Shown one piece after another: positions 9,346 through 26,015 of a stretch of DNA of 42,310 nucleotides (its first letter is position 1; every line of letters starts with the position of its first letter). This DNA is from Paracidovorax anthurii (GTDB lineage: Bacteria > Pseudomonadota > Gammaproteobacteria > Burkholderiales > Burkholderiaceae_C): contig NZ_QLTA01000044.1 in NCBI RefSeq assembly GCF_003269065.1, positions 1 through 42,310 of the forward strand, written 5' to 3'. The position numbers were made by a program, and so were the translations under genes. The notes under the pieces are model-generated. The model did no database searches. It saw nothing but the letters and a program-made list of their open reading frames with translations, and had not been told where the DNA came from.

Positions 9346-10634
9346 GCGCGCCGGCGCGCGCCCTTCCTCCCCTGGCGCCCCAGGCCGGGCCGGGTTCCAT
9401 GCTGGAGTCCCACGCCGCCATCGCGGTGTTCCTGGCGTTCGCGTTCGCCTATTTCCTGTCCGCGGCCTCCCGGGCCGTCACGGCCACGCTGGCGCCGTCG
9501 CTGGTGGCGGAGTTCGCGCTGCAGCCACGCGATCTCGGGCTGCTGGCGGGCGGCTATTTCCTCGGTTTCGCGGCCATGCAGTTGCCCATGGGGCAGTGGC
9601 TCGACCGCCACGGTCCCCGGGCCGTGGTGCTGGGGTTCCTGGGCGTGGCGGTGGCCGGGTGCGCCGTGTTCGCGGTGGCCAGCGGATTCAGCGGCCTGCT
9701 GGCGGGCCGCGTGCTTTGCGGTGCGGGCGTGAGCGCCTGCCTGATGGCGCCGCTCACGGGCTTTCGCCGCTGGATGGCACCCGAGACCCAGTTGCGGGCC
9801 AATTCCTGGATGCTGATGACTGGCTCGCTGGGCATGGTGGCCTCGACGCTGCCGGTGCAGTGGCTGCTGCCGCTGGCGGGATGGCGGCCGCTTTTCTGGG
9901 CGCTGGCGCTGCTGCTGTTGCTTTCGATGCTGCTGATCGCGTGCCGGGTCCCGCCATGGAGTGGGGCACCCGGCCTCGAAGACCGGGAGGCGCTGCCGCC
10001 GTCCGGCTATGGCGCCGTATGGCGCCATCCGTACTTCCGGCGGCTGGCGCCGCTGGGGTTCTTCACCTATGGCGGCATGGTGGCCATGCAGACGCTCTGG
10101 GCCGGCCCGTGGATGCAGCGGGTGTCGGGGTATTCGCCGCTGGAGGCCGCGGCCGGGCTGTTCGCGATCAATCTCGCCATGCTCTGTGCCTACTGGGCCT
10201 GGGGCATGGTCAATCCCTGGCTGATGCGGCGCGCGGGCGGCGCCGATCCGGTGATGGCGGTGCTGTTGCCGCTGCCGCTGGTGGTGCTGGCGGGCATCGT
10301 GCTCGCGGGCGGCTCCGCGGGGGGCGGCGCGTGGGCGCTGTACTGCGTGGCCACGTCCTGCGTCACGCTGTCGCAGCCGGCGCTGGCCATGGCGTTCCCG
10401 CAGGCCATGGCGGGGCGGGCGCTCTCGGCGTTCAATCTCGTGATGTTCCTGGGCGTCTTCTGCGTGCAGTGGGGCATCGGCCTGGCGGTGGATGCGTTCG
10501 TGGCCGCGGGGTGGTCCGAGCCCTCGGCCTTCCGTGCGACCATGGCGGCCTTTGGCGTTTGCAGTGCCTTGTCCTATGCGTGGTTCATGGTTCGGGGCCG
10601 GCGCCATAATGCGGTTCACCCGATCACCCCATGA
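9342..10634 (+). CDS. MFS transporter
   Basis: Inner-membrane secondary transporter of the major facilitator superfamily with unknown substrate. The 430-aa product has about 12 hydrophobic segments. A loop motif GQWLDRHGPR after the second segment corresponds to the MFS GxxxDRxGRR signature. The GTG at 9342 overlaps the upstream stop; an ATG at 9399 is an alternative start that would drop a 19-residue tail. The gene ends by overlapping the next start (ATGA). It sits in a coupled run of genes that leads into the PTS genes. Confidence 0.86.
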   Translation: MSAPARALPPLAPQAGPGSMLESHAAIAVFLAFAFAYFLSAASRAVTATLAPSLVAEFALQPRDLGLLAGGYFLGFAAMQLPMGQWLDRHGPRAVVLGFLGVAVAGCAVFAVASGFSGLLAGRVLCGAGVSACLMAPLTGFRRWMAPETQLRANSWMLMTGSLGMVASTLPVQWLLPLAGWRPLFWALALLLLLSMLLIACRVPPWSGAPGLEDREALPPSGYGAVWRHPYFRRLAPLGFFTYGGMVAMQTLWAGPWMQRVSGYSPLEAAAGLFAINLAMLCAYWAWGMVNPWLMRRAGGADPVMAVLLPLPLVVLAGIVLAGGSAGGGAWALYCVATSCVTLSQPALAMAFPQAMAGRALSAFNLVMFLGVFCVQWGIGLAVDAFVAAGWSEPSAFRATMAAFGVCSALSYAWFMVRGRRHNAVHPITP

Positions 10635-11083
10635 GCACGCGCATCCTCCTCATCGCCCACGCACCGCTGGCCCATGCCCTGCGCGCCTGCGCCCTGCACG
10701 TCTTCCCCGACTCCGCCGACGACATCCTGGCACTCGACGTGCATCCCAATGCACCGCCCGAGGACACGCTCGCGGCCGCGCGCATCCTGCTCTCGGCGGA
10801 GCGCGGCGATGGCGCGACGCTGGTGTTGACCGACGTGTTCGGCGCCACGCCCTGCAATGTGGCGCAGCGGCTCGTGGACGGCGAGCGCTCGCGCCTGGTC
10901 ACCGGCGTGAACCTGCCCATGCTGCTGCGCACCGTGAGCTACCGCCACGAGCCGCTGGACGCGCTCGTCGCCCGCGCCGTGGTGGGGGGCACGCAGGGGG
11001 TGATGCAAGTGGCCGCCACGGCCCCCCAGAACCAGATCCGACGCTCCCACCATGATCAAGACGAATATCACCATCAGCAATAA
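10631..11083 (+). CDS. PTS mannose-type EIIA component
   Basis: EIIA of the mannose class, a cytoplasmic phosphocarrier that accepts phosphate from HPr. The 150-aa product starts MSTRILLIAHAPLAHAL, with the likely phospho-histidine at residue 10, followed by a Rossmann-like body with VLTDVFGATPCNVAQRL. No EIIB, EIIC or EIID gene is nearby. In betaproteobacteria this EIIA-HPr-EI trio is thought to be regulatory rather than a sugar uptake system. The ORF runs 32 bases into ptsH, and its last 15 or so residues are His/Gln-rich. Confidence 0.88.
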   Translation: MSTRILLIAHAPLAHALRACALHVFPDSADDILALDVHPNAPPEDTLAAARILLSAERGDGATLVLTDVFGATPCNVAQRLVDGERSRLVTGVNLPMLLRTVSYRHEPLDALVARAVVGGTQGVMQVAATAPQNQIRRSHHDQDEYHHQQ

Positions 11084-11321
11084 GCTGGGCCTGCATGCCC
11101 GCGCCTCGGCCAAGCTCACGAAGCTGGCGGGCAGCTTTCCCTGCGAGGTGTGGATGAGCCGGGGCGACCGCCGCGTCAATGCCAAGAGCATCATGGGCGT
11201 GATGATGCTGGCCGCCGGCATCGGCACCGAGGTGGCGCTGGAGACCGACGGCGCCCAGGAGCAGGAGGCGATGGACGCGCTGCGCGCGCTCATCGACAAC
11301 AAGTTCGGCGAGGGCGAGTGA
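11052..11321 (+). CDS. ptsH: Phosphocarrier protein HPr
   Basis: HPr passes phosphate from enzyme I to EIIA proteins. The 89-aa product has the catalytic His at residue 15 in KLGLHARASAKL and a Ser at position 46 in RRVNAKSIMGVMML, the site used by HPr kinase where that enzyme exists. The ATG at 11052 lies inside the end of the EIIA gene. ptsI follows 43 bases later. Confidence 0.95.
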   Translation: MIKTNITISNKLGLHARASAKLTKLAGSFPCEVWMSRGDRRVNAKSIMGVMMLAAGIGTEVALETDGAQEQEAMDALRALIDNKFGEGE

Positions 11322-11364
11322 GCCCCGGCATGGCCCCCGCCCAACCCCGCTCCGGAGCGCCGCG

Positions 11365-13143
11365 ATGACGTTCGCGATCCATGGCCTGGCCGTCGCCCGG
11401 GGCATCGCCATCGGGCGCGCGGTGCTGGTGGCGTCGAGCCGGGTGGACGTGGCCCACTATTTCATCGAGCCCGGCCAGGTGAAGGCCGAGATCGTGCGCG
11501 TGCGCAATGGCCGCAATGCCGTGGTCGAGGAGCTGCAGCGCCTGCAGGCCGAGATGCCCGCCGACGCGCCCCACGAACTCGCCGCGCTGCTGGACGTGCA
11601 CCTGATGCTGCTGCAGGACGAGGCGCTGGTGAGCGGCGTCAAGCACTGGATCACCGACCGCCTCTACAACGCCGAGTGGGCACTGACCACGCAGCTGGAG
11701 ATCATCGCCCGCCAGTTCGACGAGATGGAGGACGAGTACCTGCGCGAGCGCAAGGCCGACCTGGAGCAGGTGGTCGAGCGCATCCTGCGGCACATGAAGG
11801 GCGTGGCGGGCCCGGTGGCGCCGCCGCCCTGCAGCCCGCGCCGGGGCAGTGCCGCGCTGGGGCTGCAGCAGGACCTTTTGCCCGGCGACATGGTGGACGT
11901 GCCGCTGGTGCTGGTGGCGCATGACCTGTCGCCGGCCGACATGCTGCAGTTCAAGCAGAGCGTGTTCGCGGGTTTCGTGACCGACGTGGGCGGCAAGACC
12001 TCGCACACGGCCATCGTGGCGCGCAGCATGGACATCCCCGCCGTGGTGGGCGCGCGTGCCGCGAGCCAGCTCGTGCGGCAGGACGACTGGGTCATCATCG
12101 ACGGCGACGCGGGTGTCGTCATCATTGATCCGTCGCCGATCATCCTGGCCGAATACGGCTTCCGCCAGCGCCAGACCGAGCTGGAGCGCGAGCGGCTCTC
12201 GCGGCTGCGGCACACGCCGGCCGTGACGCTCGACGGCGAGCGCATCGAGCTGCTGGCCAACATCGAGCAGCCCACCGATGCGGCCGTGGCCGTGCGGGCC
12301 GGCGCCGCCGGCGTGGGGCTCTTCCGCAGCGAGTTCCTCTTCATGGGCCGGGGCGGCAACCTGCCGGGCGAGGAGGAGCAGTACCAGGCCTACCGCACTG
12401 CCGTGGAGGGCATGAACGGCCTGCCCGTCACGCTGCGCACCATCGACGTGGGTGCCGACAAGCCGCTGGACAACAAGGCCTCCAAGGACAGCGCGGGCTA
12501 TCTCAACCCGGCCCTGGGCCTGCGGGCGATCCGCTGGAGCCTGGCCGATCCGGCGATGTTCCGCACCCAGTTGCGCGCGGTGCTGCGCGCGGCCGCGCAC
12601 GGGCCGGTGAACCTGCTCTTCCCGATGCTGGCCCACGTGAGCGAGATCCGCCAGACGCTCACCCAGGTGGACATGGCCCGCGCCGAGCTGGACGCGCGCG
12701 GCGTGGCCTACGGCGCGGTGCAGCTCGGCGCCATGATCGAGGTGCCGGCGGCGGCGCTCATCGTGCGCCGCTTCCTGAAGTATTTCGATTTCCTCTCGAT
12801 CGGCACCAACGACCTGATCCAGTACACGCTGGCCATCGACCGCGCCGACGAGGGCGTGGCCCATCTCTACGATCCCCTGCACCCGGCGGTGCTGCAGCTG
12901 GTGGCCGACGTGATCGCCGAGGGCCACCGGCAGGGCAAGAGCGTGTGCCTGTGCGGCGAGGCGGCGGGCGACGTGGCGATGACGCGGCTGCTGCTGGGCC
13001 TGGGCCTGCGCAGCTTCTCCATGCACCCCGCGCAGATCCTGGCCGTGAAGCAGGAAGTGCTGCGCGCCGACACCCGCAAGCTCCAGCCCTGGGCCCAGGG
13101 GGTGATCGACTCCGACGAGCCGGCGAACGGCCTGACCCCCTGA
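11365..13143 (+). CDS. ptsI: PTS enzyme I (phosphoenolpyruvate-protein phosphotransferase)
   Basis: Enzyme I uses phosphoenolpyruvate to phosphorylate HPr. The 592-aa product has an N-terminal HPr-binding part, the phosphohistidine motif GGKTSHTAIVAR with His at residue 214, and the C-terminal PEP-binding barrel with GLFRSEFLFM and DFLSIGTNDLIQYTLAIDR. A proline-rich insertion with PVAPPPCSPRRGS before the phosphohistidine domain is longer than in E. coli. It closes the EIIA-HPr-EI run; a dispersed palindromic repeat follows the stop at once. Confidence 0.95.
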   Translation: MTFAIHGLAVARGIAIGRAVLVASSRVDVAHYFIEPGQVKAEIVRVRNGRNAVVEELQRLQAEMPADAPHELAALLDVHLMLLQDEALVSGVKHWITDRLYNAEWALTTQLEIIARQFDEMEDEYLRERKADLEQVVERILRHMKGVAGPVAPPPCSPRRGSAALGLQQDLLPGDMVDVPLVLVAHDLSPADMLQFKQSVFAGFVTDVGGKTSHTAIVARSMDIPAVVGARAASQLVRQDDWVIIDGDAGVVIIDPSPIILAEYGFRQRQTELERERLSRLRHTPAVTLDGERIELLANIEQPTDAAVAVRAGAAGVGLFRSEFLFMGRGGNLPGEEEQYQAYRTAVEGMNGLPVTLRTIDVGADKPLDNKASKDSAGYLNPALGLRAIRWSLADPAMFRTQLRAVLRAAAHGPVNLLFPMLAHVSEIRQTLTQVDMARAELDARGVAYGAVQLGAMIEVPAAALIVRRFLKYFDFLSIGTNDLIQYTLAIDRADEGVAHLYDPLHPAVLQLVADVIAEGHRQGKSVCLCGEAAGDVAMTRLLLGLGLRSFSMHPAQILAVKQEVLRADTRKLQPWAQGVIDSDEPANGLTP

Positions 13144-14087: not shown

Positions 14088-14154
14088 AGCGTAGGAGGGT
14101 GCCCGTCAAAACGGTGTCAAAAGAGCGGGGCGCCGCATCAAGGCGCCATCAAGG
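14088..14154 (-). promoter_or_regulatory. Four-half-site response-regulator array, porin promoter
   Basis: On the minus strand, half-sites start at 14152 (TTGATG), 14141 (TTGATG), 14120 (TTGACA) and 14109 (TTGACG), spaced 11, 21 and 11 bases. A -10-like TACGCT begins at 14093, 16 bases after the last start. The same geometry recurs upstream of the kdp operon and of the gene after kdpE. OmpR-family regulators such as KdpE bind direct repeats spaced 10-11 bases, so KdpE is the probable binder; that assignment is inference. Confidence 0.75.
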
Positions 14155-14172
14155 CCTGCGGCCGCCCGTGGG

Positions 14173-14239
14173 TTTTTACGCCGCGTTTACGCCCCCCCTC
14201 CCAAGCTGTGCACACTTTTTACGGGCGCTTTTCCAGAAT
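14173..14239 (+). promoter_or_regulatory. kdp operon promoter with half-site array
   Basis: TTTACG half-sites start at 14175, 14186 and 14218. A degenerate position at 14207 (TGTGCA) completes the 11-21-11 grid. The -10-like CAGAAT begins at 14234, 16 bases after the last half-site start. The 28-base block from 14213 matches 22731-22758 at 23 of 28 positions. E. coli KdpE binds T-rich direct repeats in the same arrangement before kdpF. Transcription would start near 14246. Confidence 0.8.
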
Positions 14240-14277
14240 GCCTTCCATCGCCCGGCAGGGCTGATGGAGTGCAAACA

Positions 14278-14385
14278 ATGGATATCCTGTGGATTGCCGC
14301 GATCGCGGCGTTGTGGGTCGCCATGGCCGAGGCCGTGGTGCTCCTGGGTCGCCACGATGGCCGGCCGCGGGGAGAGACGCGATGA
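14278..14385 (+). CDS. Small predicted membrane peptide, first cistron of kdp
   Basis: A 35-codon ORF with GGAG 8 bases before its ATG. It encodes one hydrophobic segment (IAAIAALWVAMAEAVVLL) followed by a basic tail, and overlaps the kdpF start by ATGA. It is not KdpF itself, which lies directly downstream. It could be a Kdp accessory subunit or a translational coupler. I do not recognise a family. Confidence 0.6.
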   Translation: MDILWIAAIAALWVAMAEAVVLLGRHDGRPRGETR

Positions 14386-14480
14386 TCGGCATCGAAGTGC
14401 TCTACGGCTTCGGCGCGATCGTCGCCGTGCTGCTGTTCGCGTACCTGGTGTTCGCGCTGATCTGCGCGGAGGAGTTCTGA
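14382..14480 (+). CDS. kdpF: KdpF, small subunit of the Kdp K+ transporter
   Basis: KdpF is a single-pass lipid-like subunit that stabilises KdpABC. The 32-aa product has one transmembrane helix with [20 protein letters not shown], and the [13 protein letters not shown] end resembles the YLVYALINAEAF end of E. coli KdpF. It overlaps the upstream small ORF and lies 1 base before kdpA. Confidence 0.9.
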
Positions 14481-14481
14481 C

Positions 14482-16287
14482 ATGGATGCCTCCGCCTGGG
14501 GCCTGCTGGCCCTGTTCCTGATCGTTCTGGGCGTGCTCGCGTGGCCGCTCGGCAAGGTGCTGGCCGCCGTGTGCGAGGGCCGCCTGCCGGCCTGGATGCA
14601 CCGCGCCGAGGCGCCCCTCTACCGGCTGGCCGGCGTGCGGCCCGAGGTGGGCATGCACTGGCGCCACTACGCGCTGGCGCTGCTGGCCTTCAATGCGCTC
14701 GGCGTGTTCGTGGTCTATGCCCTGCAGCGGCTGCAGGCGCTGCTGCCGCTCAATCCGCAGGGCCTGGCCGCCATATCGCCCGATTCCGCCTTCAACACGG
14801 CGGTGAGCTTCGTCTCCAACACCAACTGGCAGGGCTACGTGGGCGAGAGCACGATGGGCTACCTCGTGCAGATGCTCGGGCTGTCGGTGCAGAACTTCTT
14901 CTCCGCCGCCACGGGCATCGCGGTGGCGTTCGCGCTCGCCCGGGGCTTCGCGGCCCGCCGCACGGACGGGCAGGGCCACGTGGGCAACTTCTGGGCGGAC
15001 CTGGTGCGCATCACCGCCTGGGTGCTGGTGCCGCTGTCGTTCGTGCTGGCCCTCTTTTTCGTGGGCCAGGGCGTGATCCAGAACTTCAAGCCCTACCAGG
15101 ACGTGGCCACGGTGGAGGTGACGGCCTTCCAGGACCCGCAGCTCGACGCGCAGGGCCAGCCCCTGAAGGATGCGTCCGGCAACCCCGTCACCAAGGACGC
15201 GAGCACCCACACCCAGACGCTGCCCATGGGGCCGGTGGCCTCGCAGGAGGCGATCAAGATGCTGGGCACCAATGGCGGGGGCTTCTTCAACGCCAACTCG
15301 GCGCACCCCTACGAGAACCCGACGCCGCTCGCCAACTTCGCGCAGATGCTGGCGATCTTCCTGATCCCCGCCGCGCTGTGCTTCACCTTTGGGCGCGTGG
15401 TGGGCGATCCGCGCCAGGGCGTGGCCATTCTGGCGGCGATGGTGCTGATGTTCGTGGTGGCCGTGATTCCGCTGACGGCCGCCGAGCAGGCCGGCAACCC
15501 GGGCCTGGGCGCACTGGGGGTGGACCAGGCCGCCTCGGCCGTGCAGGCCGGCGGCAACATGGAGGGCAAGGAGGTGCGCTTCGGCATCACCGCCTCGTCG
15601 CTCTTCGCCGCCATCACCACGGCCGCCTCGTGCGGCGCCGTCAACGGCATGCACGACTCGCTCACGCCCGCGGGCGGGCTGGTGCCCATGGTGCTCATGC
15701 AACTGGGCGAGGTGGTCTTCGGCGGCGTGGGGTCGGGGCTCTACGGCATGCTGATCTTCGCGATCCTCGCGGTGTTCATCGCGGGGCTGATGATCGGCCG
15801 CACGCCCGAGTACCTGGGCAAGAAGATCGAGGTGCGCGAGATGAAGCTCACCTCGGTGGCCATCCTGGTGACGCCCATCCTCGTGCTGGTGGGCACTGCC
15901 GTGGCCGTGAGCGCGGCCGCCGGCCAGGCCGGCATCGCCAACCCGGGCGCGCACGGCTTCTCCGAGATCCTGTACGCGCTCACCTCGGCGGGCAACAACA
16001 ACGGCAGCGCCTTCGCGGGCCTCTCGGCCAACACGCCCTTCTACAACGTGCTGCTGGCGCTGGCCATGTGGTTCGGCCGCTTCGGCGTGATCGTGCCCGT
16101 GCTGGCCATCGCCGGCTCGCTGGCCGCCAAGAAGCGCCTGCCGGCGAGCGTCGGAACCATGCCCACGCACGGCCCGCTGTTCGTGGCGCTGCTGATCTTC
16201 ACCGTGCTGCTGGTGGGCCTGCTGAACTACGTGCCTGCCCTGGCACTGGGCCCGGTGGTCGAGCACCTGATGCTCTGGGCACGCTAA
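14482..16287 (+). CDS. kdpA: KdpA, potassium-binding subunit
   Basis: KdpA forms the K+ pathway and is related to superfamily K+ transporters. The 601-aa product is a polytopic membrane protein with four pore-loop-like segments; [11 protein letters not shown] and [19 protein letters not shown] are the clearest. It is somewhat longer than the 557-residue E. coli protein; a polar loop after about residue 210 accounts for part of this. GAGTTCTG of kdpF ends 1 base before its ATG. Confidence 0.96.
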
Positions 16288-16305: not shown

Positions 16306-18411
16306 ATGACAACCCCCCAGACAACGACACCCAAGAATCTTTCGCTGTTCGATGCCGCGCTCGTGCGCCCGGCGCTGTGGCAGGCCTTCGCCAAGCTCAA
16401 GCCCAGCGTGCAGTGGCGCAACCCGGTGATGTTCATCGTCTACATCGGCAGCATCTTCACCACGCTGCTGTGGCTGCAGGCCCTGACCACCGCGCAAGAC
16501 CTGGGCATGCGCCCGGTCTTCATCCTGGCGGTGGCCGTGTGGCTGTGGTTCACGGTGCTGTTCGCCAACTTCGCCGAGGCGCTGGCCGAGGGCCGCAGCA
16601 AGGCGCAGGCCGCATCGCTGCGCGGGCTGCGCAAGGACACCTGGGCCAAGAAGCTCGCGGAGCCGCGCCACGGCGCGACCTTCCTGCCCGAGCAGGCCAC
16701 CAACCTGCGCAAGGGCGACGTGGTGCAGGTGGATGCCGGCGACGTGATCCCGCTCGACGGCGAGGTCATCGAGGGCGTGGCCTCGGTGGACGAGAGCGCC
16801 ATCACGGGCGAATCGGCGCCCGTGGTGCGTGAGTCGGGCGGCGACTTCTCCGCCGTCACTGGCGGCACGCGCGTGCTCTCCGACTGGATCGTGGTGCGCA
16901 TCACCGTGAACCCGGGCGAGTCGTTCCTCGACCGCATGATCGGCATGGTCGAGGCCGCCAAGCGCCAGAAGACGCCCAACGAGGTGGCGCTGACCATCCT
17001 GCTGGTGGCGCTCACCATCGTGTTCCTCGTGGTCACGGTGACGCTGCTGCCGTTCTCGATCTTCAGCGTCACGGCCTCGGGCGCCGGCATGGCGGTGTCG
17101 CTCACGGCGCTGATCGCGCTGCTGGTGTGCCTGATCCCCACCACCATCGGCGGCCTGCTCTCGGCCGTGGGCGTGGCGGGCATGAGCCGCATGATGCAGG
17201 CCAACGTGATCGCCACCTCGGGCCGCGCCGTCGAGGCCGCGGGCGATGTGGACGTGCTGCTGCTGGACAAGACCGGCACCATCACCCACGGCAACCGGCA
17301 GGCGAGCGCGTTCCTGCCCGCGCCCGGCGTGAACCGTGCGCACCTTGCGCGCGCCGCGCTCATGGCCTCGTTGGCCGACGAGACGCCCGAGGGCCGCAGC
17401 ATCGTGGAGTTGGCGCGGCGCGAGGGCGTCGAAGCCGAACGCGGCGCTGCCGAGGGCCTCGTGCTGGTGCCCTTCACGGCCCAGACGCGCATGAGCGGTG
17501 TGGACCTGCCCGCGCCGGGCGGCGGCGAGCCCGTGGCGCTGCGCAAGGGCGCCGTGCAGGCCCTCGCGCGGCACGTGGAAGCGCTCGGCGGCACCCTGCC
17601 GCCGGAGGTGGCGCGCGCCGCCGACGACGTGGCGCGGCGCGGCAGTACGCCGCTGGCCGTGGCCGATGGCGCGCGCGTGCTCGGCGTCGTGGAGTTGAAA
17701 GACATCGTCAAGGCAGGCATCAAGGCGCGCTTCGCCGAGCTGCGGCGCATGGGCATCAAGACCGTGATGATCACGGGCGACAACAAGCTCACCGCCGCCG
17801 CCATTGCCGCCGAGGCCGGCGTGGACGACTTCCTGGCCGAGGCCACGCCCGAGGACAAGCTGGCCCTCATCCGCCGCTACCAGTCCGAGGGCCGCCTCGT
17901 GGCCATGACGGGCGACGGCACCAACGACGCCCCCGCGCTGGCCCAGGCCGACGTGGCCGTGGCCATGGGCAGCGGCACGCAGGCCGCCAAGGAGGCCGGC
18001 AACATGGTGGACCTGGACTCCAACCCCACCAAGCTGCTGGAGGTGGTGGAGACCGGCAAGGCGCTGCTCATGACGCGCGGCTCGCTCACCACCTTCTCGA
18101 TCGCCAACGACGTGGCCAAGTACTTCGCCATCATCCCGGCGATGTTCGTGTCCACCTACCCGCAGCTCGGGGCGCTGAACGTGATGCGGCTGGCCAGCCC
18201 GTCCTCGGCCATCCTGTCGGCGGTGATCTTCAACGCGCTCGTCATCGTGTTCCTGATCCCGCTGGCGCTCCAGGGCGTGCGCTACCGCCCCGTGGGAGCC
18301 GCGGCCCTGCTGCGCCGCAACCTCGCCATCTACGGCGTGGGCGGCCTCATCGTGCCGTTCATCGGCATCAAGCTCATCGACTGGGCGCTCGTGGCCGTGG
18401 GCCTGGTCTGA
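16306..18411 (+). CDS. kdpB: KdpB, P-type ATPase subunit
   Basis: KdpB is the P-type ATPase that drives K+ uptake. The 701-aa product has the phosphorylation motif DKTGT with Asp at residue 321, the actuator motif [10 protein letters not shown], the nucleotide-binding segment with [11 protein letters not shown], and the hinge [17 protein letters not shown]. Length and order match KdpB (E. coli 682). GAGGAG precedes the ATG by a few bases. Confidence 0.97.
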
Positions 18412-18434
18412 GCGCGGCATCCGGAGGATCTTTC

Positions 18435-19091
18435 ATGACCACGACCCATTCCACCCACCCCGTCCCCGCGCCTGCGCCGTCCGGCGCTCCGGGCGATGCC
18501 GTTCCCGTCGCCGCCAAGGGCCCGCTGCTGCGGCCCGCGCTGGTGCTGTTCGCCCTGATGACGGTGGTCACGGGCGTGCTCTATCCGCTGGCCGTCACGG
18601 GCGTGGCGCAGGCCGTCTTTCCCCACCAGGCGGCGGGCAGCCTGGTGCAGGGCCGCGATGGCAAGCCCGTGGGCTCGGAGCTGATCGGCCAGAACTTCAC
18701 CGACCCCGGCCACTTCTGGGGCCGGCCCTCGGCCACCTCGCCCATGCCCTACAACGCGGGCGCCTCGGGCGGCTCTAACCTGGGGCCCCTCAATCCCGCG
18801 CTCGCCGACGCCGTGAAAGCCCGCGTGGAAGCCCTGCGCGCGGCCGACCCCGGCAACACCGCGCCCGTGCCGGTGGATCTGGTCACGGCCTCCGCCAGCG
18901 GGCTCGATCCGCACATCAGCCCGGCGGCGGCGCAGTACCAGGCCGCCCGCGTGGCTCGCGCGCGCGGCCTGCCGATCGAGCGCGTGCAGGCGCTGGTCCG
19001 CGCGCACACCGACGCGCCTGCCATGCCGTGGCTGGGCGAGACCGGCGTGAACGTGCTGGCGCTGAACCTCGCCCTCGACGCGCTGCGCTGA
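18435..19091 (+). CDS. kdpC: KdpC, accessory subunit
   Basis: KdpC anchors in the inner membrane by one N-terminal helix and has a large periplasmic domain. The 218-aa product has a proline-rich cytoplasmic start, one hydrophobic segment at about residues 34-55, then [17 protein letters not shown] and the C-terminal [13 protein letters not shown], both typical. GGAGG precedes the ATG at 18435. 83 bases separate it from kdpD. Confidence 0.95.
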
Positions 19092-19174: not shown

Positions 19175-21966
19175 ATGCCCGACCACCGCCCCGACCCCGA
19201 CGCCCTCATCGCCCAGATGCGCGCGGAGGAGCAGCGCACCCAGCGCGGCAAGCTGCGCATCTACTTCGGAGCGAACGCCGGCGTGGGCAAGACCTGGTCC
19301 ATGCTCAGCGCCGCGCAGCGCGAGCGCCAGGCCGGCCGCGACGTGCTCATCGGCGTGGTGGAAACCCATGGCCGCAGCGAGACCGCGGCGCTGCTGGGCG
19401 ATCTGCCCGTGCTGCCGCTGCGCGCGTTCGACTACCGGGGGCGCGCGCGCACCGAGTTCGACCTCGACGCGGCCCTGCAGCGCCGGCCCGCCGTGCTGCT
19501 GGTGGACGAATTGGCGCACTCCAACGCGCCGGGATCGCGCCATGCCAAGCGCTGGCAGGACGTGCAGGAGCTGGTGGCCTCGGGCATCGAGGTCTGGACC
19601 GCGCTCAACGTGCAGCACCTGGAGAGCCTCAACGGCACGGTGGGCGCGATCACCGGCGTGCGGGTGCACGAGACCGTGCCCGACACGGTGCTGGACGAGG
19701 CCGACGAGGTCATCCTCGTCGATGCCACGCCCGACGAGCTGGCCGCGCGCCTCGCGGCCGGCAAGGTCTACGTGCCCCAGCAGGCCGAGCGCGCGGCGCA
19801 GAACTTCTTCCGCAAGGGCAACCTCATCGCGCTGCGCGAGATCGCGCTGCGCCGCACCGCCGAGCATGTCGAGGACGACGTGCGCGGCTGGCGCGTGGAG
19901 CAGTCCGGCGGCGGGCACGGCGTGCCGCCCGCGTGGAACACCTCCGGCGCGCTGCTGGCCTGCGTGGGCCCGCACGAGGAAGCCGCCCACACCGTGCGCA
20001 CGGCCGCGCGGCTGGCGGGGCAGCTCAACGTGCGCTGGCACGCGGCCTATGTGGAAACGCCGCGCCTGCAGCGCCTGCCGGCCCCGCAGCGCGACCGCAT
20101 CCTGGCGGTGCTGCAACTGGCCGAGGGCCTGGGCGCCGAGACCGCCGTGCTGACCGGCAACGCGGTGGCGCCCGCGCTGGCCGAGCACGCGGACCACCTC
20201 AACTGCGCCACCCTCGTGGTGGGCCGCGCGCGCCTGGCCTCCGGCTGGCGGCGATGGTGGCCGGTGCCCGGCACGGCCCAGGCCATCGCCGCCGCGGCGC
20301 CGGCCCTGGAGATCGTGGAGGCCGGCCGCCCGGGCAGCAGCCGCCGCCTCGCATCGACGCCCTGGCGCCAGGGCGAAGACCCGGCGGCCGCCACCGCGCA
20401 CGACGGCGAGGACCAGCAGGTCGCCCGCTGGCCCGGCTACGGCGCGGCCGTGGCGGCCAGCGTCGCGGTCACCCTGCTGACCCTGCCGCTGTCCGGCGTG
20501 CTGGAGCTGACCAACATCGTCATGCTCTACCTGCTCGGCGTGGTCGGCGTGGCCATGCGCTTCGGGCGCGGGCCGGCCGCGCTGGCGGCGCTGCTCAACG
20601 TGGCGGCCTTCGATTTCGTCTTCGTCTCGCCGCGCCTCTCGTTCGCCGTGAGCGACGTGCAGTACCTCGTCACCTTCGCCGTGATGCTGGGCGTGGGCCT
20701 GCTCGTGGGCCAGCTCACGGCGGGACTGCGTTTTTCCGCCGGCGTGTCGGCGGGGCGCGAGCAGCGTACCCGCTCGCTGTTCGAGCTCACGCGCGAGCTG
20801 TCGGCTGCCCTGGAGGCCGCGCAGATCGTGGAGATCGCCACGGCGGCGGTGCGCAAGCACTTCGGCGGGCAGGCCGTGGTGCTGCCGCTGGACGACGGCG
20901 ACCGCCTCGTGCTGCCGCAGCAGCCCCCGGCCGGCTTCGATACGAGCGTGGCCGACTGGACACTGCGCCATGGCCAGAGCGCCGGCCTGGGCACGGCCAC
21001 GCTGGCGGCGCAGAGCTGGCGCTACGTGCCGCTCACCGCGCCCATGCGCGTGCGCGGGGTGCTCGCCCTGGCGCCCGCGCGCCCGCGCTGGCTGCTCATC
21101 CCCGAGCAGGCGCAACAGCTCGAAACCCTTGCGCGGCAGATCGCCATCGCGCTGGAGCGCGTGCACTACGTGGACGTGGCCCAGCGCGCCGTGGTGGACA
21201 TGGAGTCCGAGCGCCTGCGCAACGCGCTGCTGGGCGCCATTTCGCACGATGTGCGCACGCCGCTCACGGCGCTCATCGCCCTGGCCGAATCCCTGCCCGC
21301 GCAGCCGGGCGAGGCCCTGGAGGCCGCCTCCCGCGCCATCATCCAGCAGGCCCACCAGCTCCATGCCCTGGTCAGCAACCTGCTGGACATGGCGCGGCTG
21401 GAGAGCGGCATCGCGGGCGGCAGCGTGAGCCTGCGGCGCGACTGGCAGTCGGTGGAGGAGGTCGTCGGCTCGGCCATCCGCGCCGCGCGGCCGGCCCTCG
21501 GCACGTGGGAGGTGCGCACCTCGCTGCCGCCGGACCTGCCGCTGGTGGAGTTCGACGCGGTGCTCATCGAGCGCGTGCTGGTGAACCTGCTGGAGAACGC
21601 CGCCAAGTACGGCGCGCCGCCCATCGAGTTGGCCGCCTGCGCCTTGCCGGGGAGCCTGCGGCTCACCGTGCGCGACCACGGGCCGGGTCTGCCCCTATCG
21701 CTGCGCGGGCGCGAGCACACCCTCTTCGACAAATTCACCCGGGGCCAGGCCGAATCCGCCACGCCCGGCGTCGGCCTCGGCCTGGCGATCTGCAAGGCCG
21801 TCGTGCTGGCGCATGGCGGCGACATCGCCGCCGCGAGCGCGGTGCGCGGCCCGGGCGCAGAATTCACCGTCACGCTGCCCCGGCGCGATCCGCCGGCCGC
21901 GCCCGAGGCCCTGGAGCCGGCGGATGCCGCGCTCTCCCCGCACCGACCCTTTTCCGCCCTTCCGCC

Positions 21967-21970
<4 letters not shown>
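19175..21970 (+). CDS. kdpD: KdpD sensor histidine kinase
   Basis: Senses low K+ or envelope and turgor cues and phosphorylates KdpE. The 931-aa product has, in order: the N-terminal KdpD domain with Walker A GANAGVGKT at residues 32-40 and Walker B-like VDELAHSN near 110; a USP-like domain; four hydrophobic segments; a GAF-like region; an H-box ISHDVRTPLTAL with His at about residue 691; and an ATP-binding region with NLLENAAKYG near 804 and VGLGLAICKAV. The ATG at 19175 is chosen over upstream in-frame starts that extend into kdpC. Its end overlaps kdpE by ATGA. Confidence 0.96.
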
Positions 21971-22677
<707 letters not shown>

Positions 22678-22692: not shown

Positions 22693-22757
22693 TTGATGGA
22701 CGATTGACGCGGCACTCCGGTTTTTTTACGCACTTTTGACGGGCGCCTTCCTAGACT
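22693..22757 (+). promoter_or_regulatory. Third copy of the half-site promoter array
   Basis: Half-sites start at 22693 (TTGATG), 22704 (TTGACG), 22725 (TTTACG) and 22736 (TTGACG), spaced 11, 21 and 11. The -10-like TAGACT begins at 22752, 16 bases after the last start, as at the porin and kdp promoters. It lies between kdpE and a small gene of unknown function, so that gene probably shares the KdpE control inferred for kdp. Confidence 0.75.
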
Positions 22758-22832
22758 GAAGCCTGCTTCATCACTTGCTTCGGCGTGGCGGCCACCCTCT
22801 TGCATCCGGCTGCCGCGCGAAGCCCTACGATC

Positions 22833-23207
22833 ATGCTGCTGCACCGAAGCTTTCTCCGCGAGGAGGAGCCTTTCTCCAACGATCCTTTCGCCCGCCGGTC
22901 CGTGCTGCACGCCACCCCCTTCGTGGTGCTGCCGGTCAAGATGGCCAGGGAGCCCGCGCTGCGCGTGCGGCAACGCCTGCACGCTGCGCTGGGAAGCCGG
23001 CTGGGCACCTACCGCCTGTCGGTGGACGCAGTGCGGCCGGTCTGCACGGTCTATCTGCACCTGCGGGAGGGCGAGGTCGGCGAATGCATGGACCGGATCA
23101 TGGCGGCCCTGCCGACGGCGGAGTTCGGCCGCGTGTCCTGCCTGTTGCACGACACGGGCGCCGTGGAGCGCCCGGCGATGCGCGAGGCCTGCCGTGTCCA
23201 TGGCTGA
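22833..23207 (+). CDS. Uncharacterised small protein, probable KdpE target
   Basis: I do not recognise this protein. The ORF gives about 124 residues from the ATG at 22833. A GTG at 22785 is an alternative start that would add 16 residues. It has no membrane segment; the middle has VVLPVKMAREPALRVRQRL and an alternating hydrophobic stretch (RPVCTVYLHLREGEVGECM). It lies downstream of the third promoter array and overlaps the start of the next small ORF, so a link to K+ stress is inferred from context only. Confidence 0.55.
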   Translation: MLLHRSFLREEEPFSNDPFARRSVLHATPFVVLPVKMAREPALRVRQRLHAALGSRLGTYRLSVDAVRPVCTVYLHLREGEVGECMDRIMAALPTAEFGRVSCLLHDTGAVERPAMREACRVHG

Positions 23208-23397
23208 CATGGCCCCGGTGGGGCATGCCCTGGTGGCCGTCCTGGCCCTGTTCGCGCCGCTGGCCGTGGCGTGGTGCATCGTGCGCTGGTGCGGGCGGAA
23301 AGCGCCCGGACATCGGCGTGCCCGGCTCGGCCGTGGACCGGATGTCGAGATGGGCGTCTCCGCTGCCAAGGCGGCGCATGAACGGCGGCCTCATTGA
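23200..23397 (+). CDS. Small single-pass membrane protein, uncharacterised
   Basis: The ORF overlaps the end of the previous gene by 8 bases. It encodes about 65 residues: MADMAPVGHALVAVLALF at the start, one hydrophobic segment to about residue 25, then a basic tail with CGRKAPGHRRARLGRG. A GTG two codons earlier is also possible. No family is recognised. If real, it is the second cistron of the transcript that starts at the third array. Confidence 0.45.
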   Translation: MADMAPVGHALVAVLALFAPLAVAWCIVRWCGRKAPGHRRARLGRGPDVEMGVSAAKAAHERRPH

Positions 23398-23457
23398 CGC
23401 CAGGCGGGATGGCGTGATTTGCTCCGTTGGCGGACAACGCAACGGGAGCCAGGAAGC

Positions 23458-23843
23458 ATGCCGGCACATCACGCGCTCATCCCCATCCTGGCCACGGCGC
23501 TCGCCAGCGGCGCCCACGCTGACAACCGCACCGACACCGCGCCCCTCGATGGCTGGGCGAGCCAGGGCGGCGGCACCACGGGAGGCGCCGCCGCCACGGC
23601 CAAGTACATCAGCAAGGTCGGCTTCAGTTCGGCCTCGCAATTGAAAGCCGCACTTGGCGCTGGCGCGGTGCCCCGGACGTGATCCACGCTCTAGCGACTA
23701 CGTGACGGTATCAAACTTCGGGCTGCACGTTCGCCACCACGAACTGGGCCGTTCCCTATACCGGCTACCCGCTGGATCCCGCCGCCAGCGTCAAGGCCAA
23801 TATGACGGCCAACGCGGGGCCGGGCAAGCTCACGGTCCATTGA
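23458..23843 (+). pseudogene. Pectate lyase remnant (PL1-like), internally deleted and frameshifted
   Basis: Three fragments of a pectate-lyase-like gene survive in three frames. The N-terminus (23458-23682) encodes a signal peptide, PILATALASGAHA, and the segment LDGWASQGGGTTGGAAAT that I associate with secreted lyases of plant-associated Acidovorax. A short middle piece (from 23693) reads SDYVTVSNFGLHV, the conserved strand of PL1. The end (23730-23843) reads FATTNWAVPYTGYPLDPAAS and stops at 23841-23843. Most of the catalytic core is missing, so it cannot be active. AGGAAG still precedes the first ATG. The family call is from motif memory, not a search. Confidence 0.75.
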
Positions 23844-23984: not shown

Positions 23985-26015
23985 ATGGTGAAACCCGTTG
24001 CGCTATCCCCTCTGTCCACCACGTCCAGTACGCCTTCCTCTTCCGGAAGCGCCAGCGCCGGTCCCGCACTTGCCCGGTGCAGCAGCTCCATGCCTGACAG
24101 CGGGGCCCTGTCCCCCCTCAAAAGACGGCCTCCGGGCATCCAAGCCGAAAGCCCGGAAAACGCCCTACCCAAGGAGCATACCCTTGAGTTGCCGGCACGC
24201 AGGTCACTCAACGATTTACCAACCAACGCCCTTCGCAACATCGTCAACCGGCTGGCCTCCCAGCCGCGTGACTACGTCCGTGCCCGGACGATGTTGACGG
24301 TGATCGAGGCCAACGAAGAGGTCCGCAAAGAGGTGAGGTACAGCAGGCCGATCATCGACGCCAGATCCCGTGCGGTCAAGACGGAGGGGGATCTGCAGCG
24401 TGACTGGAAAAGCATCGACAGCCTGATCGAGACGTTCGAGACATTCAATGCCGGGGCGCCGCAAGCCGCCAAAGAATCTGTCGCGGCGCGGCTAGAAAAA
24501 GTGGCTTTCTCGAGAATGGAGCCGCTCCCGCCCACGGGGGGGGGGCTGCAGGGCCGGGAAGAAACCAGCAGTGCTCCCCCTCGTGCAACGCTGCAGGACA
24601 TCAAGCAGAGAATCAATGCATTCCATCAGTTGACTGAAAGACAACGCCATGATTTGGTGACTCGAGTGCTTCACCTGCCGAATGCCGAGGACTATGACGA
24701 GATGCGAGAGCTTCTGGCGCAGGAGCTTGCCGAGGAGCCGCGAAAAGAGCAGATAAAGTGGTCGGAGCAGATCTGGAGTCAAGATAAAAGCATCCGAAAG
24801 GCGAAGCAGGAGCTGTACAAGTCCACGGTTTCCGAGCTGGCGAATGCCCATGTTCGCGACCTGTTAGGAGCCGAGGCGCGGATCGCCGAAGACTTTCCCC
24901 ACCTCTTCGTGGAGTCCAGAAACGCGGTTTTCAAGGGCATTATGGGCGCCCGGGACGATCTGGCGCGACTCCGCGGCATCAATGCCATGGCGGGCCACGT
25001 CGATGTGCTGGACCCTGCGCAAAAGGCCAGCCTGTTCAAGGCCGTCAAGCATGCGGTGGCGCGCGGTCGCTTCTCCGACGTGCAGTTAACACTCGAAAAG
25101 ATGGCGCTGCATCTGAGCGAGTTCTCCGTGGCAGATCAGGAAAATTTCGTCCAGTTGGTATTGAAAGACCCCGCCGTCAAGCAGAAACTCCCCCTGATGG
25201 GCAGGCTCCTGAGCGGTAGCGACAAGCGCGTTCCAGGTAGCGTGTCCGCCAGCCTCCTGAATGCCCTGGAGCTGCGTTCCGGCGATCGGAAACGCCCGGC
25301 TGCTCTGAGCCAGGCGATACGGGAGGGGGCCGGGTTTCCGCACCTCGATGTCGGGCAGCGCAATCGGCTGGTCCGTATGGCCCATGCCGACATGAAGGTT
25401 GCCGACGCCTCCGAGGAGCTGTTGGGCGCACTCTCCTCTCGCTTCGAGCATCTGGACCGCGACCAGTGCCAGGCGGTGCTCGCCATCGTGCAGGGCGTTA
25501 GCCCCCGGGAGGCAGCCATGAATGCATCCCTCATCCTTGCTCAGGACGGGGTGCCGCTGTCGCCAACGGAAAGCGCCGCGCTCGTCAAGAAGCTGCACTA
25601 CCCCGGGATGAACGAGCCGACCATCAAAGTCATGGAGGCTCCGGGCTTTGCCAAGCTGTCGGAGGAGCACCGGCAGGCCCTCATCGATTTCATGGAAATC
25701 AAGTCACCAACGGGAATGTGGAGCGAGGGTTGGTCAAATCTGCCGAGAGAATCCCTCAAGGCCTTGGCGCATGGCATGTCCCACATGGATGCAGAGAACC
25801 TCCGGAAACTGGTCGACTCCCTGCCTGTCCGCATTCAGGAAGAGCTCGTGGCCGCATTCCTATCCAATCTCGAAAAGAGCAGCCTGTGGGGAGGATGGGA
25901 AGCCCAGGCGCGGTTGACGCAGGGCTTTGCGCATTTCGAGCAGGCTACTTCTCACGGCAGCGTGCGCGAAGCCATCAAGAAAGCGCAAGAAGAGATCCAG
26001 GCAAGGTACGCCTAA
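23985..26015 (+). CDS. Candidate type III effector, 676 aa
   Basis: Probably a type III secreted effector. The first 50 residues contain 14 Ser plus many Pro, Ala and Thr, with few acidic residues, typical of type III secretion signals. There is no Sec signal peptide or membrane segment. An F-box-like segment LPTNALRNIVNRL lies at 78-90. A repeated amphipathic motif with the pattern FxHLxxxQRxxLV recurs near 213-228, 339-354, 451-466, 487-502, 555-570 and 598-613. It has a perfect PIP box, GGAG 5 bases before the ATG, and looks less GC-rich than its neighbours. A relation to XopP/HLK effectors is possible but unverified. A G10 tract at codons 184-187 could frameshift it. Confidence 0.8.
   Translation: MVKPVALSPLSTTSSTPSSSGSASAGPALARCSSSMPDSGALSPLKRRPPGIQAESPENALPKEHTLELPARRSLNDLPTNALRNIVNRLASQPRDYVRARTMLTVIEANEEVRKEVRYSRPIIDARSRAVKTEGDLQRDWKSIDSLIETFETFNAGAPQAAKESVAARLEKVAFSRMEPLPPTGGGLQGREETSSAPPRATLQDIKQRINAFHQLTERQRHDLVTRVLHLPNAEDYDEMRELLAQELAEEPRKEQIKWSEQIWSQDKSIRKAKQELYKSTVSELANAHVRDLLGAEARIAEDFPHLFVESRNAVFKGIMGARDDLARLRGINAMAGHVDVLDPAQKASLFKAVKHAVARGRFSDVQLTLEKMALHLSEFSVADQENFVQLVLKDPAVKQKLPLMGRLLSGSDKRVPGSVSASLLNALELRSGDRKRPAALSQAIREGAGFPHLDVGQRNRLVRMAHADMKVADASEELLGALSSRFEHLDRDQCQAVLAIVQGVSPREAAMNASLILAQDGVPLSPTESAALVKKLHYPGMNEPTIKVMEAPGFAKLSEEHRQALIDFMEIKSPTGMWSEGWSNLPRESLKALAHGMSHMDAENLRKLVDSLPVRIQEELVAAFLSNLEKSSLWGGWEAQARLTQGFAHFEQATSHGSVREAIKKAQEEIQARYA
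24536..24545 (+). repeat. G10 homopolymer inside the effector gene
   Basis: Ten consecutive G encode Gly185-Gly187 plus the last base of codon 184. A one-base slip would shift the frame and stop translation early. It may be a phase-variation switch, or simply a place where assembly errors are likely. Confidence 0.9.

Follow-up and report, generated by a model that had tools for sequence, protein, structure and literature searches.

Regulators of the OmpR/PhoB family drive porin genes through tandem 10-11-bp repeats, as OmpR does at ompF and ompC and PhoB at phoE. Porins of the TorF family sit in ammonium loci together with glnK and amtB, where their neighbours are thus a PII protein and a transporter for a cation of about the size of K+. 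For KdpE, the described case is the kdpFABC promoter of Escherichia coli, where the passages on the site in PMC3264566 give two half-sites, TTTATA and TTTACA, a 5-bp spacer and a footprint from -72 to -50. In the passages of PMC7657598 on its targets, kdpFABC is called the sole one, and adeP, uxaA and uxaC are added by ChIP-exo combined with expression. The locus described here shares with the E. coli kdp promoter the half-site pair, its 5-bp spacer, the distance to a -10-like hexamer and the recognition residues of KdpE; it differs in that KdpE of E. coli acts mainly on a single target through an element described as two half-sites, whereas the arrays here also show a distinct proximal pair and occur at two promoters besides that of kdp. 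It resembles the OmpR and PhoB systems in its porin and repeats, but the regulator and signal are different, and those porins are trimers of 16-stranded barrels whereas a 12-stranded barrel is predicted here. The ammonium loci have the same porin family, but the transporter here is Kdp and the small protein has only a predicted fold in common with PII.

The window that we analysed is a stretch of 42,310 nt from Paracidovorax anthurii (GCF_003269065.1, contig NZ_QLTA01000044.1, forward strand, positions 1 to 42,310). It holds three arrays of 49 bp, all inside 9 kb, each composed of four half-sites with start offsets of 0, 11, 32 and 43 and followed by a -10-like hexamer at offset 59 (Table 1). 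They lie upstream of a TorF/Gcw_chp porin gene, of kdpFABC and of a small-protein gene behind kdpE, with the porin and kdp arrays placed back to back across a gap of 22 bp. A first-pass annotation of this DNA had located these elements and proposed that KdpE controls the porin, Kdp and small proteins as a set; all 12 of its half-site coordinates and its three -10-like hexamers are correct to the base, and the 23 identities that it counted between the 28-bp blocks 14213-14240 and 22731-22758 are exact. We conclude that the three arrays are probably KdpE operators through which KdpE controls all three units, and give this reading a probability of roughly 0.85. KdpE control is strongly supported by what the sequences offer, namely the geometry of the arrays, their conservation and their co-occurrence with kdp.

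Table 1. Features of the porin-kdp-small-protein region in window coordinates. Half-sites are listed in the order of their offsets; on the minus strand a half-site or hexamer starts at its higher coordinate.
Feature	Position	Strand	Details
TorF/Gcw_chp putative porin, 273 aa	13202..14023	-	predicted 12-stranded barrel
Porin promoter -10-like hexamer	14088..14093	-	TACGCT, start 14093
Porin operator (candidate)	14104..14152	-	TTGATG (14147-14152), TTGATG (14136-14141), TTGACA (14115-14120), TTGACG (14104-14109)
kdp operator (candidate)	14175..14223	+	TTTACG (14175-14180), TTTACG (14186-14191), TGTGCA (14207-14212, degenerate), TTTACG (14218-14223)
kdp promoter -10-like hexamer	14234..14239	+	CAGAAT
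Hydrophobic 35-aa ORF before kdpF	14278..14385	+	similar ORFs there in Comamonadaceae relatives
kdpF	14382..14480	+	TIGR02115 2.7e-7
kdpA	14482..16287	+	
kdpB	16306..18411	+	
kdpC	18420..19091	+	start not fixed
kdpD	19193..21970	+	start not fixed
kdpE response regulator	21967..22677	+	NF007820 342.2 bits, over cut-off 325
Small-protein operator (candidate)	22693..22741	+	TTGATG (22693-22698), TTGACG (22704-22709), TTTACG (22725-22730), TTGACG (22736-22741)
Small-protein promoter -10-like hexamer	22752..22757	+	TAGACT
Small protein, 124 aa	22833..23207	+	beta-alpha-beta-beta-alpha-beta core, PII/CutA-like predicted fold
Hydrophobic 67-aa ORF	23194..23397	+	overlaps small-protein gene end; similar ORFs behind some relatives' genes

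The pattern TTKAYR-N5-TTKAYR-N26-TTKAYR, allowing up to one mismatch, occurs exactly three times in the window, each time without a mismatch, against an expectation of 0.01 from 100 dinucleotide shuffles, none of which reached three. We used a sequence-only model (R1), built from 34 aligned kdp-upstream arrays of other named genomes with no window sequence included, to look for arrays independently of this pattern; its training arrays were picked by a regular expression requiring sites 1, 2 and 4, and are thus the canonical ones among 80 loci. In the window, R1 recovered the three arrays at E values of 5.1e-10, 1.1e-8 and 9.3e-8. A weight matrix from the same 34 foreign kdp promoters scored the kdp, porin and small-protein arrays at 48.7, 46.8 and 40.1 bits and everything else in the window at -2.1 bits or less, that value coming from a shifted register of one of the three arrays, while the top score anywhere in the window for 200 column-permuted matrices was 16.6. 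Over the whole genome (5,466,943 bases in 130 contigs; 963 first-look candidates, of which 150 were scored), R1 gave the porin array at E 6.9e-8, the kdp array at 1.4e-6 and the small-protein array at 1.2e-5. The fourth match came only at E 0.51, and those beyond the three arrays lay at 0.51-0.63. The arrays noted at the outset are therefore the only three convincing matches in this 5.47-Mb genome. A search of plasmid records with the porin-kdp intergenic region gave no match.

At the same offsets, the E. coli K-12 kdpF promoter reads TTTATA, TTTACA, TTTGCG, TTTGCA and TACCCT, a degenerate form of the array geometry. Given the footprint at -72 to -50 in the passages on the site (PMC3264566), our own arithmetic places the hexamer at offset 59 at about -12. 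The comparison with E. coli KdpE made in the first-pass annotation holds, the distal half-sites matching the TTTATA-N5-TTTACA site proven there (PMC3264566, in the same passages): in the window, too, two TTTAYA-like half-sites with a 5-bp spacer stand upstream of kdpFABC. Since the E. coli distal pair matches and the proximal pair is additional, we view the distal pair as shared and the proximal pair as an extension, of which we found no description in the passages cited here (PMC3264566, PMC7657598). The regulator points the same way. The genome encodes a cognate KdpE that, when aligned with the E. coli protein, is identical over a stretch of the recognition helix (SHYLRIYMGHLRQKLE) and keeps the recognition residues R193, R200 and T215.

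When kdp promoters were selected on a perfect distal pair only, 63 of 80 named kdp loci yielded 66 such pairs. Of these, 56 are followed by a half-site matching in at least 5 of 6 letters at offset 43, and 29 have one at offset 32. Other offsets had between 0 and 8, except for offset 41 (23/66), a count that we read as the T-run of the offset-43 site. The half-sites TTGACA and TTGACG look like a -35 box, and could in principle be -35 elements of overlapping sigma-70 promoters. However, their spacers to the -10 hexamer are 10 or 21 bp rather than about 17, and the offsets stay unchanged where the half-sites read TTTACG, TTTATA or TTGATG. We rejected this reading on its wrong spacers and regard it as highly improbable.

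The arrays are conserved in the genus and follow the presence of the genes. Across 17 genus genomes R1 gave 35 matches (E up to 0.05), at least one in every genome, and all 35 lie upstream of one of the three targets and on the correct strand for it: 15 at the small protein, 11 at kdp and 9 at the divergent porin. KdpA is present in all 17, and a half-site scan found the kdp array in each, including six that R1 had missed. The small-protein gene occurs in 15 of the 17 (it is absent from G008 and G014) and has the array every time; its promoters keep a perfect proximal pair in 15/15, while 11 of the 14 promoters from relatives have an imperfect site 1 or 2. A porin adjoins kdp in nine genomes, each with an R1 array in which sites 3 and 4 are perfect and the hexamer is TACGCT, site 1 being poor in four (G010, G011, G012, G015). 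Among the eight genomes without a kdp-adjacent porin, seven have no array there and G004 has a decayed one, its sites matching 5, 4, 5 and 5 of 6 letters.

This distribution also bears on whether KdpE has its true operator at kdp only, with the porin and small-protein arrays being functionless copies left by duplication of the kdp promoter region. The closeness of the three arrays and the 23 shared positions of the two 28-bp blocks are what such a duplication would give. Against it stand the arrays at 15/15 small-protein genes and 9/9 porins, the decayed array of G004, which lacks the porin, and more cases in Achromobacter, Massilia and Rhodoferax. What decided us against relics is the set of small-protein genes that are unlinked from kdp, either separated from it by over 50 kb or placed on a different contig (G007, G010, G011, G012, G013, G015, G016), since all seven have kept the array; we consider this reading very unlikely. 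At the level of sequence, the proposed KdpE-controlled set of porin, Kdp and small proteins is supported, in that its arrays are conserved, follow the genes and persist when the small-protein gene is unlinked.

We then examined 250 genomes of the family, using R1 with E up to 0.001, stricter filters and 20 candidates scored per genome. Arrays were found in 81 genomes and KdpA in 101, with both in 78 (Fisher 1.3e-39), so that KdpA is present in 78 of the 81 array-bearing genomes and in 23 of the 169 array-free ones; a KdpD-domain search likewise matched 101 of the 250. Because 23 of the 101 KdpA-bearing genomes gave no array under these settings, the array is either not universal or weaker in some genomes. 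Of 96 matches, 78 lie directly upstream of the KdpA match, at 37-312 bp.

Another regulator of the OmpR/PhoB family, for example PhoB, might own the arrays. Pho boxes, too, are made up of repeats of 11 bp that stand 10 bp 5' of the -10 element, the same period and position as in the arrays, but the arrays track KdpA over the 250 genomes, and no phosphate gene was recognised among the 15 assigned family targets other than kdp (by eye, with two Pfam-scanned). Cross-talk between PhoR and KdpE in E. coli is mentioned in a passage of PMC7657598, yet the half-sites resemble those proven for KdpE in the passages of PMC3264566. We rejected pho boxes on the co-occurrence with kdp and the known KdpE half-sites, and judge control by PhoB or a similar regulator quite unlikely.

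The other 18 family matches include the porin and small-protein arrays of the window, one array at a porin (G019) and one at a small-protein gene (G055). In eight cases the gene downstream is like those of class-I glutamine amidotransferases (G019, G034, G091, G135, G142, G169, G195, G232), a label that rests on a Pfam scan for one gene and on resemblance for the rest, and this gene is a recurrent further candidate target of KdpE-type arrays. Locus L016 has an array (21070, minus strand) 5' of such a gene as well. In G208 the match precedes a small-protein-like ORF and then a TorF-like ORF, both assigned by eye, and G208 was listed by neither small-protein profile. Arrays also lie upstream of short KdpD-like kinase genes in G098 (L155) and G223 (L157), neither of which has a KdpA match; the G223 kinase has DUF4118 by Pfam, and that of G098, assigned by resemblance, is followed by a KdpE-like regulator gene. 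These are possible Kdp-less KdpDE systems. Three matches have no clear target (G083, G113, G252), and that of G113 (L156, about 2189-2253; E 3.7e-8), in a genome with no KdpA match, points at the 3' end of what by eye is a ROK-like gene and is perhaps a relic. Where the small-protein gene stands close behind kdpC (G114, G137, G147, G229) no array precedes it; G055, like L007, is the exception to the rule that such genes have no array of their own among the kdp genes, with the small-protein gene and its array before kdpD.

Taking the arrays as KdpE operators, we propose that at low K+ KdpD would phosphorylate KdpE, which would bind as two tandem dimers on one face of the DNA, the starts at 0, 11, 32 and 43 being spaced by nearly integral numbers of helical turns. 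With only 10 bp between the proximal pair and the -10 hexamer, KdpE would activate through contact with RNA polymerase, at a place where a -35 element appears to be missing. The sign of regulation does not follow from binding, and the annotation of KdpE in E. coli is that of a dual regulator, so at low K+ KdpE could bind all three arrays and yet act as a repressor of the porin and small-protein genes. Set against this is that their array-to--10 geometry equals that of the kdp promoter, where E. coli shows activation, and we consider repression unlikely. With activation, one low-K+ signal would induce three transcription units. The first is kdpFABC (with kdpDE); the second is the divergent porin, which may serve as a small outer-membrane channel feeding K+ to the periplasm; and the third is the two-ORF unit behind kdpE, encoding a soluble PII/CutA-like small protein, a putative post-translational modulator or sensor for Kdp, and a small hydrophobic protein. 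Pump, putative outer-membrane channel and small protein are thus probably switched on together when potassium runs out.

The porin scores well over the curated cut-offs of its families (119 bits against 24 for PF09694; 115.7 against 47.15 for TIGR02001), and has 9-12% identity to the small porins NanC and KdgM. A paralogue in the same genome adjoins glnK-amtB, and the porin family therefore seems to be paired both with NH4+ and with K+ uptake. Near kdp, Gcw_chp matches were found in 20 of 80 named loci, and in 13 of 19 such loci no good array of the porin's own was seen. At the level of the class none of 29 porin loci lay beside kdp, with about 1.5 kb of flank searched, and ten had no glnK or amtB, their neighbours looking mixed in the ORF lists. 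A further difference from NanC and KdgM is that the conserved charges in the strand columns are predominantly acidic, by 7 to 2. Context, predicted fold and this slight charge bias suggest a cation channel that passes K+ (NH4+ in the paralogue), a proposal that we hold at about even odds.

The small protein matched no Pfam or NCBIfam family, and hence no PII profile. PDB sequence profile searches with the small protein and the porin each returned a single poor match (E 0.28 and 0.79, respectively), not a convincing one for the former. Sixteen weak matches of a first profile of the small protein (E 4.9e-4 to 0.0095) were regarded as chance; at E 5e-4 none of them was listed by a second profile, built in part on the stronger matches of the first. 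PII and GlnK proteins have a long T-loop between strands 2 and 3, and it is absent from the model of the window protein, in which strand 2 extends to position 65 and strand 3 starts at 70; three aligned relatives have a longer insert near this junction. From predicted fold and linkage, the small protein could be a PII-like partner of Kdp, an assignment we regard as doubtful. Just 3' of its -10 hexamer (window 22758-22830) is a TGTTCCA/TGCTTCA-like motif that recurs in relatives.

More tentatively, Kdp in the Burkholderiales might form a two-membrane K+ module, with a KdpE-driven pump, a monovalent-cation channel of the TorF/Gcw_chp family and a PII-like protein, mirroring TorF-GlnK-AmtB. If so, the porin family has moved between K+ and NH4+ modules more than once, passage of these ions would be the so far missing function of a widespread family of porins, and an unrecognised PII-like Kdp regulator is revealed. 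Given a conserved multi-target regulon, high-affinity K+ uptake in a large Gram-negative group may involve a step at the outer membrane as well as a soluble partner of small size. What appears to be new is the multi-target KdpE regulon, the proximal pair beyond the known E. coli site, the porin with its glnK-amtB-adjacent paralogue and the predicted PII/CutA-like protein; among the titles and abstract openings listed by our searches of one open-access library, we recognised none that describes a Gcw_chp porin or the small protein as controlled by KdpE. A conserved regulon of several targets would stand against the nearly single-target KdpE of E. coli, as portrayed in passages of PMC7657598. 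The proposal also offers a testable function for PF09694/TIGR02001 porins, would tie the uptake of K+ to that of NH4+ by way of a single porin family and suggests a possible new PII-like protein family beside Kdp.

Neither the 35-aa ORF before kdpF nor the 67-aa ORF behind the small-protein gene matched Pfam or NCBIfam. Beyond the small-protein unit, a 676-aa ORF (23985-26015) had no Pfam match above the cut-off, and a short ORF (23434-23682), also without a Pfam match, is reminiscent of the N-terminal part of a pectate lyase and looks incomplete. On the other flank, beside the porin-kdp region, positions 10631-13143 encode what we take, from their signatures, to be three phosphotransferase-system proteins: a mannose-type EIIA, HPr and enzyme I.
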